This document shows positions 3,798 to 9,690 of a stretch of 64,000 nucleotides of DNA, piece by piece. Position 1 is the first letter of the stretch. Each line of letters starts with the position of its first letter. The notes beneath the pieces were generated by a model, which was not told the DNA's origin, did not search any database, and saw only the letters and a list, made by a program, of their open reading frames with translations. The translations under genes and the position numbers were made by a program. This stretch comes from Thiolapillus brandeum (GTDB lineage Bacteria > Pseudomonadota > Gammaproteobacteria > Chromatiales > Chromatiaceae): positions 1,178,001-1,242,000 of the forward strand of contig NZ_AP012273.1 of NCBI RefSeq assembly GCF_000828615.1. Direction: 5' to 3'.

Positions 3798-5981
3798 ATG
3801 GTCAGCATGGTTACCCATCTTCCCGAGACCGGCGCTATCGGTCAGGAACAGCTCACGGCATGGCTCGCTGCCCTGGCCGGGCACCGCAGCCGCAAAGAAA
3901 TCCACCAGATCAACCTGGCCCTGGAGCTGATTCACCGCGTTCATGATGAAGAATCCACACCGGGCGGGGTACAACACCCGCTGGCCCTGATCCAGACCGC
4001 AGATATCCTCGACCAATTGAACTTGGATACGGAAACCCTGGTGGCCGCTCTGCTGTCGGACCTGCCCCTTACCGAGCTGGAGCAGGCCGAGGCTTTCGGG
4101 GATCGCGTGCCAGCCATGATCCGCGATCTCAGCCGTATCCGTACTCTCGCGGTGAGCGGCAGCAGTGCCGGTGACGACAAGCAGAGTGAGAATCTGCGCC
4201 GTATGCTCCTTGGTCTGGCGGATGACGTGCGCGTGGTGCTCATTGTTCTGGCCAAGCGTCTGCAGCTCATGCGCGCCCTTCAGCATCTGGATGATGAGAC
4301 CGAGCGTCGTCTCATTGCAGATATCACCCAGCGTATTCACGCTCCTCTGGCCAATCGGCTGGGGGTCTGGCAGATCAAGTGGGAACTCGAGGATCTTTCC
4401 CTGCGAGTATTGCATCCTGCTGCCTACCGGGACATTGCCCGCTCCCTGGAGCAGAAGCGTGAAGAGCGTGAACGCTTTATCGCCAAGGTCATTGAACGTC
4501 TGCAGTCCCGCTGCACGGAACATGGCATCAAAGCGGATATCAGTGGTCGTCCCAAGCACATTTACAGCATTTGGAAGAAGATGCAGCGCAAGGGGGTGGA
4601 TTTCAGCCAGATTTTCGATGTGCGCGCCGTGCGTGTGCTGGTGGACACGGTTTCCCAGTGTTATGAGGTGTTGGGCATGGTGCATGGTGCCTGGCAGCCC
4701 ATTCCCCAGGAGTTCGACGACTACATCGCCCATCCCAAAGCCAATGGCTACCGTTCTCTGCATACCGCAGTAGTGGGAGAGGATGGCAAGCCCCTGGAAG
4801 TGCAGATCCGTACCCGCGAGATGCACGATCATGCGGAGTGTGGTGTGGCGGCCCACTGGCGCTACAAGGAAGACGGCAAGGGGGATGCCGAGCTGGAGCG
4901 GCGCATCGAGTGGATGCGCGCCTGGCTGGAACAGCCCGGTGATTCGCGGGAAGCGGAAGATGCCGATGCAGAGTTTGAAGCCCGGCGTATCTATGTACTC
5001 ACCCCGGAGGGGAAGGTGGTGGAGTTGCCCAGGGGCGCCACAGCCGTGGATTTTGCCTATGCCATTCACAGTGCCGTGGGACATCGCTGCCGCGGGGCCA
5101 AGGCGGATGGCAAAATGATCTCTCTCACCCAACCCCTGGAAAGTGGGCAGACCGTGGAGATTCTTACGGTCAAGGAAGGCGGCCCCAGCCTGGATTGGCT
5201 GAACACCAGTGCCGGATATGTCACTACCTCCCGGGCGCGCAATCGCATCCGCCACTGGTTCAAACGCCAGGACTATGAACAGCATGTGAGCCTGGGCAGG
5301 GCCAGCCTGGACAAGGAAATCAGCCGTCTGGGCGTCAAGCGTCCGGATCTGGAAAAACTGTTGGGAAAATATAATTTCAAAACAGTGGATGATCTCTATG
5401 CCGCCATGGGGCGGGGCGAAGTATCGGCCACCCAGGTGGCGAATCTCCAGGTAGCTCCAGTGGAAGTGGACGATGATCAGGATATCGCCCTGAAGGCGGA
5501 TAAACGTTCGGTACGCCGCAAGGCCGCAGCGGGAGAAGTGGTGGTGCAGGGAGTGGACGGGCTCATGACCCATACCGCGCGCTGCTGCAAGCCCGTACCC
5601 TATGATCCCATATCGGGTTACATCACCCGGGGCAAGGGAGTGACGATTCATCGCCGGGACTGCCCGGTGCTGCGCCGCCTGAAAAAGGATCAGCCGGAAC
5701 GCCTGATCCCGGTGGTGTGGAGCCAGGATCAGCCCCGGGGTGTGTTTCTGGTGGATGTGCAAATCTATGCCCATGACCGCAAGGGGCTGCTGCGGGACAT
5801 CAGTTCCGTGTTTTCCAATGAGGAAGTGGATGTCCTGGGCGTGAAGACCCATTCTGATCGCAAGCAGGAAACGGCCAGCATGCGTTTCACCCTGGAAGTA
5901 ACAGACATGACCCAGCTCAGCGGGGTGATGGAGAAGCTGGCCCAGGTGCCGGACGTGGTGGAAGTGAAGCGGCAGGTGTAG
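3798..5981 (+). CDS. relA: GTP pyrophosphokinase RelA (synthetase-only type)
   Basis: 727 residues with the full long-RSH layout: an N-terminal HD-fold domain, synthetase (about 235-345), TGS (about 395-455), a cysteine-containing zinc-finger-like stretch (ARCCKP near 594) and a C-terminal ACT domain. It makes (p)ppGpp on stalled ribosomes. The hydrolase HD pair is lost (LLSDLP where bifunctional enzymes have a His-Asp pair), and the synthetase has the acidic EFDD motif at 305-308, typical of monofunctional RelA rather than the RFKD of SpoT. A separate spoT is therefore expected elsewhere. The gene stands alone and converges with dut. Confidence 0.95.
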   Translation: MVSMVTHLPETGAIGQEQLTAWLAALAGHRSRKEIHQINLALELIHRVHDEESTPGGVQHPLALIQTADILDQLNLDTETLVAALLSDLPLTELEQAEAFGDRVPAMIRDLSRIRTLAVSGSSAGDDKQSENLRRMLLGLADDVRVVLIVLAKRLQLMRALQHLDDETERRLIADITQRIHAPLANRLGVWQIKWELEDLSLRVLHPAAYRDIARSLEQKREERERFIAKVIERLQSRCTEHGIKADISGRPKHIYSIWKKMQRKGVDFSQIFDVRAVRVLVDTVSQCYEVLGMVHGAWQPIPQEFDDYIAHPKANGYRSLHTAVVGEDGKPLEVQIRTREMHDHAECGVAAHWRYKEDGKGDAELERRIEWMRAWLEQPGDSREAEDADAEFEARRIYVLTPEGKVVELPRGATAVDFAYAIHSAVGHRCRGAKADGKMISLTQPLESGQTVEILTVKEGGPSLDWLNTSAGYVTTSRARNRIRHWFKRQDYEQHVSLGRASLDKEISRLGVKRPDLEKLLGKYNFKTVDDLYAAMGRGEVSATQVANLQVAPVEVDDDQDIALKADKRSVRRKAAAGEVVVQGVDGLMTHTARCCKPVPYDPISGYITRGKGVTIHRRDCPVLRRLKKDQPERLIPVVWSQDQPRGVFLVDVQIYAHDRKGLLRDISSVFSNEEVDVLGVKTHSDRKQETASMRFTLEVTDMTQLSGVMEKLAQVPDVVEVKRQV

Positions 5982-6006: not shown

Positions 6007-6627
6007 TCAGGTGCCGGGGTAGCGGGCTTCCAGTGCCGTGTAGATCTGCTCCTCGAAGTTGTTTTCGTTGGCATCCACTGTGGCGGCAATTTCCGCCAAA
6101 TGCTCGTTGTCCTCACGCCCCTCCCAGGTTTTGATATAGCTGCCGTCCTTGTAGCCGTGATCCTGGCGGAAACGGTTGAGGACGTTCTTGCCCACATAAA
6201 TACGGTACAGGTCGTCGAAGCTGCTGTCCACGTCCCCCAGCAGGGTAAGAAACGCAGGCATGTCCAGGGCCTGCTGTTCAAGGGCGTGACGTGCCAACTG
6301 ATCCACGTTGTTGCGGAAATCATTTTCCCTGGATTGCCGCCCCTGTAACCGCGCCAGCATGTTGGCGGCGGCGCTGGCGTGATCGCCCCGGCAACTGACC
6401 AGTTCTGCGCTGAGCCCGAAATGCCAGATGTCGATGAGTTCCAGGCGGATCTGTTCCAGGTCGTGTTCCTGAGCCTTCCACCATTTCCAGCCATAGTGCT
6501 CCATGAGTTCAGCGCTCTCCAGCCAGATGGCGCGGTACCATTCGTAACCGGCCTGCAGCCAGTCGGGGTTGATCTGACGGTTGAGCTGATCCTGGAGATC
6601 CAGCATGTTCAGGAGTTTCTGTTTCAT
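6007..6627 (-). CDS. dimeric all-alpha dUTP diphosphatase
   Basis: A 206-residue MazG-like dUTPase_2 family protein that hydrolyses dUTP to dUMP, keeping uracil out of DNA and feeding dTMP synthesis. Metal-binding acidic helices are visible: ESAELMEHYGWKWWK early on, ELIDIWHF shortly after, and a later D-x2-DLYRIYVGKN segment. This is the all-alpha enzyme, unrelated to trimeric Dut. The start at MKQKLLNM is preferred, as relatives begin there; an ATG 33 nt upstream is possible. Its promoter region is cut short by the IS element whose left end lies about 70 bp upstream. Confidence 0.85.
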   Translation of the reverse strand: MKQKLLNMLDLQDQLNRQINPDWLQAGYEWYRAIWLESAELMEHYGWKWWKAQEHDLEQIRLELIDIWHFGLSAELVSCRGDHASAAANMLARLQGRQSRENDFRNNVDQLARHALEQQALDMPAFLTLLGDVDSSFDDLYRIYVGKNVLNRFRQDHGYKDGSYIKTWEGREDNEHLAEIAATVDANENNFEEQIYTALEARYPGT

Positions 6628-6705
6628 GAAAATGATGGTTTGGTGGGAAACAGCGTTCATTCTACTAGCAATTTCAGGGAGATGCTGATGGAGATATTAG
6701 ACATG

Positions 6706-6718
6706 ATGTTTTGACCTG
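6706..6718 (+). repeat. left subterminal inverted repeat of the IS
   Basis: ATGTTTTGACCTG, exact complement of 8422-8434. Flanking bases also match partly (CCCAACC here against GGGTTG there, with a one-base gap), so the paired region is about 20 bp long. Position and length fit the subterminal repeats of IS1111-like elements. Confidence 0.75.
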
Positions 6719-6797
6719 CCCAACCTCAACGAACGTGGATTATGCTGGGGTTGGGAAATACACTCCCGACACAGAGCCACATTGAGGAGGACAGGTC

Positions 6798-8006
6798 ATG
6801 AAAGAGTCTATCGCAAAAGCCATTGATAAACAGACAAAAGCGGCGCAGGTGAACACGGCGGATGCAGGCAGCTACGCGGCCTACATCGGGTTGGATGTTC
6901 ACAAAGACACCATTGCGGTGGCTATCGCGTTACCGGGCCGGGAAGAACCGGTCTACCGGGGTGAAATTGCCCATGAAGGCCGAAAGGTGGAAAAATGGCT
7001 GAATCGCCTGAGTGTCGAGTTTGATGGTCAGGTGCTGCAATTCTGCTATGAAGCAGGGCCCTGCGGCTACGGGCTGTATCGCCGCCTGGTGGGGGCGGGT
7101 CATGACTGCCAGGTCGTGGCCCCCTCACTGATTCCGAGGAAGGCTGGTGAGCGGATCAAGACCGATCGGCGGGATGCACTGAAGTTGGCGCGGCTGTTAC
7201 GGGCCGGTGAGCTGACAGCAGTGTGGGTACCGGATGCTGAGCAGGAGGCCATGCGGGATCTGACCCGGGCCCGGGACGACATGAAGAGCCAGGAGCGCAA
7301 GGCGCGTCAGCAGCTTAATGCTTTTGTGTTGCGTCACGGCCACCACTGGCCCCGGGGCAAGAAGCGCTGGACCCAGGCGCATTTCAACTGGCTGGAATCG
7401 ATCCAATTTGAGCAGCCCTGGCTGCAGATTGTGCTGCAGGAATACATCGATGCAGTCAAGGCGGCGACCCGGCGGGTCACCGACCTGACCGAGCAGCTGA
7501 TGCAAGCCTTACCGGGCTGGTCATTGGCCCCGGTGGTGGACGCCCTGGTGGCCCTGCGGGGGGTCGACAAGCTGGCCGCTACCGTCCTGCTGGCGGAGTT
7601 GGGCGATATCAGCCGTTTCGATTCCCCGAAACAGCTGATGGCCTACCTGGGACTGGTGCCGAGCGAGCATAGCAGTGGCGGCCGGCGACGTCAGGGCGCG
7701 ATCACCCTGACCGGCAACGGTCATGCGCGCCGGATGCTGGTGGAGTGTGCCTGGAGCTACCGCTTTCCGGCGCGCCAGACGATGCATCTCAAACGAAAGG
7801 CCAAGGCGGCACCAGAACGGGCCAAGGCGATCGCCTGGCGGGCCCAGAAGCGTCTCTGCGGTCGCTATCGTCAGCTCACGCAGGCCGGCAAGAACGTCAA
7901 GTTGGTGTGTGTCGCGATTGCCCGGGAATTGGTCGGCTTCATCTGGGACATCGTACGGCAGGAGATGCCCCGCCTGATGGCCAAGAGTGGATCGGCGGCT
8001 GGATAA
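6798..8006 (+). CDS. IS110-family transposase (DEDD / Transposase_20)
   Basis: 402 residues, the normal length, apparently intact. The N-terminal RuvC-like DEDD domain shows IGLDVHKD (first Asp), YEAGP (Glu) and KTDRRDALKLARLL (later Asp residues). The C-terminal Transposase_20 domain shows LRGVDKLAATVLLAELGD and SSGGRRRQGAITLTGNG, with the catalytic serine candidate at 292/293. Members recombine DNA guided by a bridge RNA that pairs with donor and target sites. A strong AGGAGG ribosome site lies 8 nt before the ATG. No frameshift or stop is seen, so it could be active. Confidence 0.95.
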   Translation: MKESIAKAIDKQTKAAQVNTADAGSYAAYIGLDVHKDTIAVAIALPGREEPVYRGEIAHEGRKVEKWLNRLSVEFDGQVLQFCYEAGPCGYGLYRRLVGAGHDCQVVAPSLIPRKAGERIKTDRRDALKLARLLRAGELTAVWVPDAEQEAMRDLTRARDDMKSQERKARQQLNAFVLRHGHHWPRGKKRWTQAHFNWLESIQFEQPWLQIVLQEYIDAVKAATRRVTDLTEQLMQALPGWSLAPVVDALVALRGVDKLAATVLLAELGDISRFDSPKQLMAYLGLVPSEHSSGGRRRQGAITLTGNGHARRMLVECAWSYRFPARQTMHLKRKAKAAPERAKAIAWRAQKRLCGRYRQLTQAGKNVKLVCVAIARELVGFIWDIVRQEMPRLMAKSGSAAG

Positions 8007-8421
8007 GCCGTGTGCCGCACGATACGACTGCTACCATAGGAGGAGGAACGACAGGCACCTTGACTCAGGGTCTATCTGGCCGGTGTGGAGAACCCTTGTC
8101 CGGGTTATAACGGCATCGGCCATGACGGGATAACCTCAAGCGAGCATTCCCGGTCGATGATCCCTGACATTAGAGAAAGGCCAGCTCTGCGACGCAGTGA
8201 AGTCCGGTGGTAACCAATCCACGCATATCAGCATGATCCACCGTTGCAATCTGCTGGATGGACCCTGAGCCAAGGTGCTTGAACAATACACCACGAGACT
8301 GACAGATAGATCGAGCATGGGCTTATCCACCCTTTGCCCACCGCTGCGCAATAAGCCAAAGGTTGCTACGCCGTGGACAAAGCGTGGATAAGCCCTCGGG
8401 GCAGTATTAGCCAGGGGTTGA
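8007..8421 (+). ncRNA. candidate bridge-RNA region of the IS (3' arm)
   Basis: This 415-bp stretch inside the IS has no convincing gene. It can fold: AACCC/GGGTT around 8090-8106, CCTTTG/CAAAGG around 8331-8352, and a perfect 12-bp inverted repeat GGGCTTATCCAC (8319-8330) with its complement (8384-8395). In the IS1111 group the guide RNA is encoded in this position, downstream of the transposase, unlike the IS110 group where it is upstream; here only about 90 bp exist upstream. Exact RNA ends and guide loops cannot be fixed by eye. Confidence 0.5.
8319..8395 (+). repeat. 12-bp inverted repeat forming a long hairpin in the IS 3' arm
   Basis: GGGCTTATCCAC at 8319-8330 pairs exactly with 8384-8395. 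The enclosed segment holds a second possible stem (CCTTTG/CAAAGG), and GGCTTAT can alternatively pair with ATAAGCC at about 8351-8357, so two mutually exclusive folds exist. Possible structural core of the bridge RNA. Confidence 0.6.
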
Positions 8422-8434
8422 CAGGTCAAAACAT
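8422..8434 (-). repeat. right subterminal inverted repeat of the IS
   Basis: CAGGTCAAAACAT, exact complement of 6706-6718. It marks the right side of the element; similarity to the TauE/SafE family in the flanking DNA resumes within about 25 bp. Confidence 0.75.
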
Positions 8435-8437
8435 ATC

Positions 8438-8579
8438 AACCCGGCGACAAAATATATCGCCCTCCGCCGCCTGCGATAGCGTCCACGGTGCCCGCCAGGG
8501 TGGCGACTGCCACGAGGAAGAACAAAACAGTTCGAAGGAGATGGATTCCATGGTTGTTTCGGTGGACAATGGGGTTCAT
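8438..8579 (-). pseudogene. N-terminal remnant of a TauE/SafE (TSUP) permease
   Basis: Reading leftwards from the ATG at 8579, the frame encodes a hydrophobic helix and then LAGTVDAIAGGGG, the hallmark first-helix motif of sulfite exporter TauE/SafE family permeases. Similarity fades immediately afterwards (RYILSPG, stop), at the right end of the IS. The remaining 200 or so residues are not on the other side of the IS, so insertion was accompanied or followed by loss of the rest. Family members move sulfite, sulfonates or related anions; this copy cannot be functional. Confidence 0.6.
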
Positions 8580-8600
8580 TTTTCCAAGGCTGTACCCTAG

Positions 8601-8758
8601 GGAACCTCTGAATAAGTCATGAACTCGCATCTCGCGCCCGAGCCGTCCGATAACTGCGTTGAAGTTCTTGCCAATAGCTGGCTATTGGCTGCAAACTTCG
8701 CCTTGTTCTCGAACGGCTCGAACACAATCTGCTTCGTCCAGACTTAATCAGAGGTTCC
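8601..8758. mobile_element. palindromic MITE with CTAG target duplication (IS5-like ends)
   Basis: 158 bp bounded by GGAACCTCTGAATAAGTC (8601-8618) and GACTTAATCAGAGGTTCC (8741-8758), inverted repeats with one mismatch. Both sides carry CTAG (8597-8600 and 8759-8762), which fits the 4-bp CWAR duplications made by IS5-subgroup transposases; the terminal bases GGAA...GAATAAG also resemble the IS5 terminus. Inside are further pairs: CGAGCCGT/ACGGCTCG (8639-8646, 8713-8720) and GCCAATAGC/GCTATTGGC (8670-8678, 8681-8689), so the whole unit folds into one long hairpin. It encodes no protein. It lies one base before the start codon of the ABC ATPase. Confidence 0.8.
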
Positions 8759-8766
8759 CTAGCATG
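8750..8766 (+). promoter_or_regulatory. MITE-supplied ribosome binding site of the ABC ATPase
   Basis: AGAGG at 8750-8754, inside the right terminal repeat of the MITE, is 9 nt from the ATG at 8764. Removing the element and one CTAG would leave AAGG 12 nt from the ATG, a weaker site, so the insertion seems to have replaced the initiation region. Confidence 0.45.
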
Positions 8767-9690
8767 AGCCACGCCATAAGACTTGAGCAACTGACCAAGA
8801 CCTACGCCAACGGCACCCAGGCCCTGAAGGGCATTGATCTGCAGGTGGAACAGGGGGATTTTTTTGCCCTGCTGGGCCCCAATGGGGCAGGCAAGTCCAC
8901 TGCCATCGGAATCCTGAGTTCCCTGGTGCGCAAGACTACCGGCCGGGTCGAGGTATTTGGCCATGACCTGGACAGGGAACCCCAGGAAGTGAAACGCTGT
9001 ATAGGTCTGGTGCCCCAGGATTTCAATTTCAACCAATGGGAACCCGTGGAAGAGATCATCATCAACCAGGCGGGCTACTATGGTATCCCCCGGCGGGAGG
9101 CTTACCGAAAGACCCGGAAGGTGCTCAAGGAGCTGGATCTGTGGGGCAAGCGCCGCGCCCAGGCGCGCAGCCTGTCCGGCGGCATGAAGCGCCGCCTGAT
9201 GATTGCCCGGGCTCTGGTACACGAACCACCATTGATGATTCTGGACGAACCCACAGCGGGGGTGGATATCGAGATCCGGCGCAGCATGTGGGCCTTCATG
9301 GAGGAGATCAACCGGGCGGGCACCACTATTGTTCTCACCACCCATTACCTTGAGGAGGCAGAGAACCTGTGCCGCAGCATTGCCATTATCGATGATGGGC
9401 TGATTGCCGAGAACAGCAGCATGCAGGCGCTGTTGCACCGCCTGCATCGCCAGTCGTTTCTCCTTACTCTGCGCGCTCCGGTAGAATCCCTGCCCGAAGG
9501 AGCGCCGGTTTCCCTGAAAATTCGTGATGAGTACACCCTGGAGACGATATTGGAACAGGAACAGACCCTGAACCGCCTGTTCGAGTGGTTGAATGAGAAG
9601 GGCATGGAAGTGCTGTCCATGCGCAATAAGCAGAACCGCCTGGAACAGTTCTTCCTGGATCGGGTGCAGAAGAAGGTGAATGCCGCATGA
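8764..9690 (+). CDS. yadG: ABC-2 exporter ATP-binding protein, YadG type
   Basis: 308 residues. Walker A (GPNGAGKST, residues 39-47), signature LSGGMKRR and Walker B LMILDEP are all intact, followed by a C-terminal coiled segment usual for YadG-like ATPases. It powers the membrane protein encoded by the next gene, with which it overlaps by 4 bp. The substrate of YadGH exporters is not established. The ATG at 8764 is used because it begins the conserved domain; the same frame is open back into the MITE, and a TTG at 8659 would add 35 transposon-derived residues. Confidence 0.88.
   Translation: MSHAIRLEQLTKTYANGTQALKGIDLQVEQGDFFALLGPNGAGKSTAIGILSSLVRKTTGRVEVFGHDLDREPQEVKRCIGLVPQDFNFNQWEPVEEIIINQAGYYGIPRREAYRKTRKVLKELDLWGKRRAQARSLSGGMKRRLMIARALVHEPPLMILDEPTAGVDIEIRRSMWAFMEEINRAGTTIVLTTHYLEEAENLCRSIAIIDDGLIAENSSMQALLHRLHRQSFLLTLRAPVESLPEGAPVSLKIRDEYTLETILEQEQTLNRLFEWLNEKGMEVLSMRNKQNRLEQFFLDRVQKKVNAA

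Follow-up and report, generated by a model that had tools for sequence, protein, structure and literature searches.

A complete IS1111-type insertion sequence (IS) lies at positions 6699–8437 of the window, the 64-kb stretch of the Thiolapillus brandeum genome that was analysed as a whole. It is preceded by an ORF (3798–5981) which we take, from its translation, to be RelA/SpoT-like, and by a 217-aa ORF on the opposite strand. The ORF that follows it (8659–9690) is presumably ABC-transporter-like, and was again named from its translation. Between the IS and the latter ORF there is an inverted repeat at 8597–8762, imperfect (74%) and with arms of 58 nt, possibly another small mobile repeat. The features in and next to the element are as follows.

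6007–6660, minus strand: 217-aa ORF preceding the element
6699–6705, plus strand: left terminal extension AGACATG, 7 bp, common to six of six genomic copies and placed with the aid of empty sites
6706–6718, plus strand: left subterminal inverted repeat ATGTTTTGACCTG, 13 bp
6798–8006, plus strand: DEDD transposase/recombinase, 402 aa, recognized by Pfam, NCBIfam, protein alignment and a PDB match
8007–8421, plus strand: 3' non-coding region, exactly 415 bp from the stop codon to the right repeat
8319–8395, no strand assigned: variable hairpin with 33-nt arms, within the element and outside the predicted RNA
8422–8434, plus strand: right subterminal inverted repeat CAGGTCAAAACAT, 13 bp
8435–8437, plus strand: right terminal extension ATC, 3 bp, placed from the genomic copies and empty sites
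8438–8471, plus strand: target, outside the IS; 34 bp left over from a MITE terminal repeat, 91% identical across this length to an intact MITE end

The left and right subterminal repeats are perfect over 13 bp, which falls within the 11–13 bp range of the IS1111 group. The longer non-coding side is downstream of the transposase gene, also a feature of this group: 415 bp, against 99 bp upstream (position 6699 up to the start codon; 92 bp when counted from the left repeat). An intact DEDD transposase, perfect 13-bp repeats, about 90 bp upstream and 415 bp of gene-free, foldable DNA downstream had been described in a sequence-only reading of this DNA, and the present coordinates agree with that description.

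Sixteen uninterrupted target ends were compared. Ten are exactly TATT|AACCCGGC, and the other six are variants with TATC, AATT, a shifted TATTA or changes within AACCCGGC. The ends of the element were placed at 6699 and 8437 because these empty sites show the target uninterrupted; there is a one-base ambiguity because an A is present at both junctions. Within that ambiguity, the empty sites give a 7-bp left and a 3-bp right extension and no target duplication, as in the IS1111 group.

Copies in the host genome

The host genome (3.15 Mb, three contigs) contains six copies of the element. All six have AGACATG and the 13-bp repeat at the left end, and the 13-bp repeat and ATC at the right. The aligned copies extend far beyond the transposase stop codon and, together with the empty sites, they bear out the earlier description of a complete IS1111-like element at 6699–8437, to within one base. 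Five copies retain the full 402-aa frame. In the remaining copy, L005 (contig C1 of the host genome, G000, 778121–779859), 246 bases are out of register and the C terminus of the transposase is altered, giving 392 aa. Compared with the window copy, L002 has one substitution and one inserted base, L003 and L004 (identical to each other in sequence) differ at 5 of 1726 positions, and L006 differs at 18 positions. The target guides and the right donor guide, described below, are free of differences in L002, L003 and L004. Since near-identical copies occupy different sites and the frame is intact in five of the six, the element may be active.

Transposase

The transposase matches PF01548 (DEDD_Tnp_IS110) and PF02371 (Transposase_20), which places it in the IS110 superfamily. 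It scores 268.9 bits against NCBIfam NF033542 (IS110 RNA-guided transposase; cutoff 140), and a phmmer search of the PDB retrieved the IS621 structure 8wt6 (E 3.7e-6). A weak NCBIfam match of the same ORF to the TIGR-Tas endonuclease (30.7 bits) is below the cutoff of 100. Residues D33, E85, D123 and D126, presumably the catalytic residues, are invariant in 10 aligned proteins, including that of IS4321. Identity to the IS4321 transposase is 25%, in an alignment covering residues 28 to 321 only. The C-terminal motif GLVPSEHSSG fits the GL-P----S(t)G motif of IS1111-group transposases, as given in extracts of PMC11187229. The length of 402 aa is outside the 330–350 aa range of the group, which is descriptive and not defining.

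Predicted RNA in the 3' arm

The 3' arms of relatives could be aligned over positions 8039–8293 (17 sequences), and a bridge RNA is predicted here. The features of this RNA, and of the promoter that would be formed by the joined ends of the element, are listed below.

8039–8293, plus strand: predicted bridge RNA (seekRNA-type guide RNA), from its fold, covariation and RNA model R1
8054–8072 and 8261–8278, plus strand: arms of the closing stem of the predicted RNA
8099–8107, plus strand: right target guide TCCGGGTTA, complement of T|AACCCGGA
8168–8173, plus strand: left target guide CATTAG, in the same sense as the left flank ATT|AG
8199–8204, plus strand: candidate left donor guide GAAGTC (GTC against GAC of AGACATG)
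8224–8231, plus strand: right donor guide CATATCAG, which is the right end CATATC followed by the first AG of the left end
8418–8423, plus strand: TTGACA, candidate -35 element of the junction promoter; all 15 aligned elements have it at their right end
6702–6707, plus strand: candidate -10 element CATGAT of the junction promoter, at 17-nt spacing to TTGACA

The predicted fold of the window RNA has an energy of -105.3 kcal/mol (z -4.5), and none of 200 dinucleotide shuffles was as good. The consensus structure has 62 pairs, of which 25 differ at both bases, compared with 12.1 such pairs in shuffles and 8–13 when the structure is slid, and 93.8% of paired cells are filled by pairs, against 34–42% in the slid structure; the structure was obtained from the alignment on which these counts were made, to the advantage of the unslid version. 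A conserved structure within 8007–8421, for which the sequence-only reading had suggested a search, is therefore present and includes compensatory pairs. The rest of the 3' arm, beyond 8039–8293, varies among relatives in length and content. The hairpin at 8319–8395 is similar in L014 and L016, gives way to different sequence in L018 and L022, and is absent in L015 and L043. A search of 6500–8800 against Rfam, with E values up to 1, found no family within 8039–8293. Two sub-threshold microRNA matches to the minus strand of the hairpin, at 8315–8399, were treated as chance.

The model R1 was built from training loci and then searched for in other loci. It matches 42 of 45 loci that had been selected by their transposase, 23 of them being the window's own copies or training loci. 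Outside training, 19 of 22 loci match (the misses are L034, L059 and L061), and at least four of these 19 (L045, L048, L049 and L051) seem to be duplicates of training loci, with equal scores and flanks. Among the untrained matches are loci of Xaviernesmea, Formimonas, Limnoglobus and Agrobacterium, at 50–52% transposase identity. In genome surveys R1 was found in 20 of 369 genomes of the class, 20 of 210 of the family and 12 of 398 of the phylum, in partly overlapping samples with stricter filters, each count including the window's own genome. Weak matches were seen in L186 (17.1 bits) and in L184 (32.9 bits), a relative on a Marinobacter plasmid; the latter match overlaps an IS630 transposase gene, and the locus was excluded from the guide tests. 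No R1 match was found in IS4321 (L185), a canonical IS1111 member, so the RNA is not simply that of all IS1111 elements.

Target guides

The right target guide matches the MITE target at six of seven variable bases. In copies L004 and L006 the match is also six of seven, with wobble at +2. For comparison among relatives, 87 RNA matches were reduced to 42 distinct rows with recognizable ends, using accepted types of right extension that had been drawn up after inspection of the matches; the ends of L052, whose repeats are imperfect, were placed by means of a typed motif. The guide parser passed 32 of the 42 rows (it skipped L028, L029, L056, L057, L162, L163, L166, L168, L169 and the second copy of L125). 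With the row of the self-inserted L125 dropped, the test comprised 31 insertions, 16 distinct right guides and 17 guide pairs.

Guide and right flank agree at 78.8 of 112 positions, against 52.0 (SD 5.0) when permuted, and none of 20,000 permutations was as good, in a test from which relatedness among rows was only partly removed. When the guide is slid by one base, 35.3 or 43.6 matches are obtained, the latter being the best of the shifted registers. There is a signal at each target position from +2 to +7 (P from 0 to 0.034) and none at +8 (P 0.88; 31 insertions). On the left, position -2 matches in 15.4 of 17 guide pairs, with 6.6 expected (0 of 10,000 permutations), position -3 matches in 9.6 of 17 (P 0.004), and no signal was found at -4 in the same 17 pairs. 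Covariation of the left guide can be followed within a single genome, G529, in which a GTT guide accompanies a GTT flank (L128) and GCT accompanies CCT (L126 and L127). The sequence-only reading had proposed comparing guide loops with both flanks; both are matched in the window element, and the guides co-vary with the flanks of related elements.

Among the 17 aligned RNAs, GGGCTA is present in 10, GGGTTA in two (the window element and L014) and other sequences in five. Other targets that have their complement at the same position of the RNA are AGGAGCC, AGCGGA and AGCCTG in the parsed set, with AACGCCC and AGGGGACG identified by eye. Several of the rows skipped by the parser match by eye, namely L056, L163, L028, L029 and L057 (in which the guide is two bases off its usual place), as does L168 over AGCGT; its sister copies L166 and L169 do not. 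The right guide of L129 does not fit its own flank, the fit is partial in L027, L046 and L134, and it depends on wobble in L014 and L127.

Donor guides

The junction test compared the RNA with the joined ends of each element, taken as a 7-mer of the right end plus the first two bases of the left end. All 30 distinct RNA sequences contain the 7-mer of their own element, and the 7-mers of the other five junction classes are found in none of 150 comparisons (six classes). As 24 of the 30 share ATATCAG, discrimination comes from the other six elements, which fall into five classes: ATAGGAG (L162), ATGAGAG (L057), ATAAGAG (L166), ATAGGTG (L055 and L058) and ATGAGTG (L053). The 30 sequences include two each from the window's genome and G529. 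A total of 34 loci had been left out by hand, their ends not being fixable (or, for L125, because of self-insertion), and five further loci were skipped as no repeat was found. The change of the right donor match with the element ends across six classes supports a bridging RNA in this IS1111-type subfamily.

A complement of the left end, 5–6 nt long, occurs in six of the 30 RNAs, all from distant relatives (L029, L053, L055, L057, L058 and L162). As a general feature a left donor guide was not found, the longest match being just 2–4 nt in the other 24 RNAs. The left-end complement of the window element is 3 nt, and the sequence at 8199–8204 is kept only as a candidate because 3-nt matches are at chance level in the 38-nt stretch searched. 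A single suggestive change at this guide is seen in L052, where AGGC is found with GCC.

At L192 (286–2219) in G529, a 283-bp repeat of the element's 3' part comes after the element. The right end of the element abuts AGAATCC within the guide-RNA gene, which would fit recombination, at an AG, between the element and its own RNA gene.

Insertion sites and MITE families

A search of the host genome with the right-flank consensus, allowing up to three mismatches, found 20 sites, against none for the control. Sixteen of these form eight facing pairs about 254 bp apart and four are single, the site of the window copy included. The sites correspond to terminal repeats of a MITE about 280 bp long. 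Seventeen MITE-like loci were fetched; both ends are present in 14 and one end in three. The two-ended loci span 280–282 bp in 11 cases and 129–138 bp in three, and all 14 have TA on both sides. L083, L085 and L086 are >99% identical to L084, and L087 is 74% identical; L172–L180 form a second subfamily with short forms. These MITEs (for example L083–L087 and L172–L180) are on the G000 chromosome and have TTAACCCGGC terminal repeats.

Three of the six copies (L002, L003 and L005) are inserted in the ends of MITEs that retain their other end. L006 is in the end of a different inverted-repeat element of about 128 bp, at CAGCT|AGCCCGGATATTTCAC, a motif with 26 matches at up to two mismatches, against none for the control. 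The target of L004 is AATT|AGCCCGGAGATC; no inverted-repeat element was recognized at this locus, where there is a 6-bp stem only.

The sequence TTAACCCGG occurs 53 times in the host genome, against nine for its reversed control, and 32 of the occurrences form 16 facing pairs of 129–282 bp. TTAGCCCGG is present five times and its control 16 times. If the guide changed from C to U, the presumed direction, the perfect match would have moved from TAGCCC (the five TTAGCCCGG) to TAACCC (the 53 TTAACCCGG), and wobble would keep the old TAGCCC site usable. G529, which has a GGGTTA guide, contains 34 TTAACCCGG, against eight for the control, and its target motif has 168 matches at up to two mismatches, against three. 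G012, of the same genus as the host (L014, guide GGGTTA), has eight against five, and its sole element is at AGCCC. The count is 38 against 18 in G059 (L016, guide GGGCTA), 16 against 24 in G089, 5 against 27 in G037 and 2 against 25 in G093. These counts are mixed: two genomes bear out a link of the guide to an abundant repeat, and across the sample the link is not general. We offer as a hypothesis that guide drift is related to MITE ends: it is possible, if somewhat doubtful, that in this IS1111-like subfamily, with its distinct 3' bridge RNA of about 225–255 nt, the guide drifts after the terminal repeats of an abundant small inverted-repeat element. The motif with 168 matches on the G529 chromosome is a YTARCCCRAATGTTTC repeat; in three fetched examples (L188–L190) it forms facing pairs of about 168 bp, and L126 and L128 are inserted in it.

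Proposed mechanism and alternatives

The locus very probably holds an autonomous IS1111-type IS of the IS110 superfamily, in which a 3' bridge RNA guides the DEDD recombinase. The comparisons indicate that this RNA specifies both the insertion site (mostly MITE ends here) and one of the element's own ends. A bridge RNA in the 3' arm had been proposed from the sequence alone, and the proposal is strengthened by the conserved fold, by guides that co-vary with the flanks and by the presence of the joined-end sequence in the RNA.

The gene, ends, empty sites, copies, RNA fold and covariation of the target and right donor guides are read from sequence comparison; for transcription, complex formation, a circular intermediate and catalysis we extrapolate from studied relatives, as follows. 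The ends of the element would join as a circle and so create the promoter TTGACA-17 nt-CATGAT; junction promoters are reported for IS1111 elements in extracts of PMC11187229. A transcript from this promoter would supply the transposase and a bridge RNA of about 225–255 nt from 8039–8293. In the 5'–3' direction the RNA would carry the right target guide, the left target guide, possibly the left donor guide, and the right donor guide. The right target guide would pair with the top strand of T|ARCCCGG; the left target guide would have the same sense as ATT|AG, and the right donor guide CATATCAG would correspond to the circle junction. The recombinase may then bring junction and target together and swap strands around T|A, without target duplication. 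Four insertions have AACCC on the right; their base at +2 is G on the left (from the element) and A on the right (from the target). This suggests that the top-strand switch takes place no later than the A of T|A, the inferred exchange point.

The recombinase might instead recognize MITE ends by protein–DNA contact or as a palindrome, with the RNA serving stability or regulation. For five of the six copies the insertion site is indeed the end, intact or as a remnant, of an inverted-repeat element, and some IS1111 relatives target folded REP or attC sites (PMC11187229, in part). A fixed protein specificity would not predict a complement that tracks differing targets across relatives, however, and L004 is outside any recognizable inverted-repeat element; we consider this explanation very improbable. 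That the 3' arm is ordinary non-coding DNA, such as a terminator or cruciform, with guide matches arising by chance, is scarcely credible: the 33-nt arms of the hairpin at 8319–8395 would suit such a view, but not the covariation specific to one register, unequalled in 20,000 permutations, the joined-end match in every one of the 30 RNAs or the compensatory pairs.

A further possibility accepts the sequence and its RNA as genuine but holds that the lineage is no longer mobile. This is unlikely, although less so than the other two. It would account for the altered 392-aa transposase of L005 and the 18 differences in L006, but less well for full 402-aa frames in five of six copies and for L002–L004, which are nearly identical to the window copy and have unchanged guides.

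Comparison with known elements

The element resembles the IS1111 seekRNA elements ISEc11, ISPa11 and ISKpn4, as they are described in sections of PMC11187229, in its subterminal repeats, 7- and 3-bp extensions, 3' non-coding region, specific target without duplication and candidate junction promoter. As in the IS1111 seekRNAs of the same sections, the predicted RNA matches the target twice, and the complement of the top strand (8099–8107) comes before the bottom-strand match (8168–8173). It differs from the elements described there in its transposase (402 aa, against 330–350), in its predicted RNA (about 225–255 nt, against 82–154 nt) and in having an evident donor-junction match. The element belongs to a known RNA-guided type. 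With IS621, an IS110 element with a bridge RNA (PMC11208160, in part; PDB 8wt6), it shares a DEDD recombinase and an RNA in which target guides are separate from a donor guide (here the right one). Unlike in IS621, the predicted RNA is 3' and not 5' of the gene, and there are long subterminal repeats.

Insertion into the ends of other mobile elements recalls IS4321/IS5075, which target Tn21-type terminal repeats according to the title of a reference in PMC11208160. The four acidic residues and the GLVP motif of the transposase are also shared with IS4321; the identity of just 25% and the lack of an R1 match in IS4321 set the two apart.

Target matches in IS1111 RNAs were described in the seekRNA study (extracts of PMC11187229), and donor-binding nucleotides were predicted for many IS1111 orthologues in the bridge-RNA study (extracts of PMC11208160). 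The present comparative data bear on the question of whether IS1111-type RNAs also read the element's own ends. They also provide a natural series of guides and targets from which important guide positions could be mapped; one of its differences is a single base associated with a MITE family. Among the best 40 of at least 5000 records, the closest relative with an IS name belongs to the ISSso6 family (IS110-like in the PLSDB annotation), at 48.8% identity.
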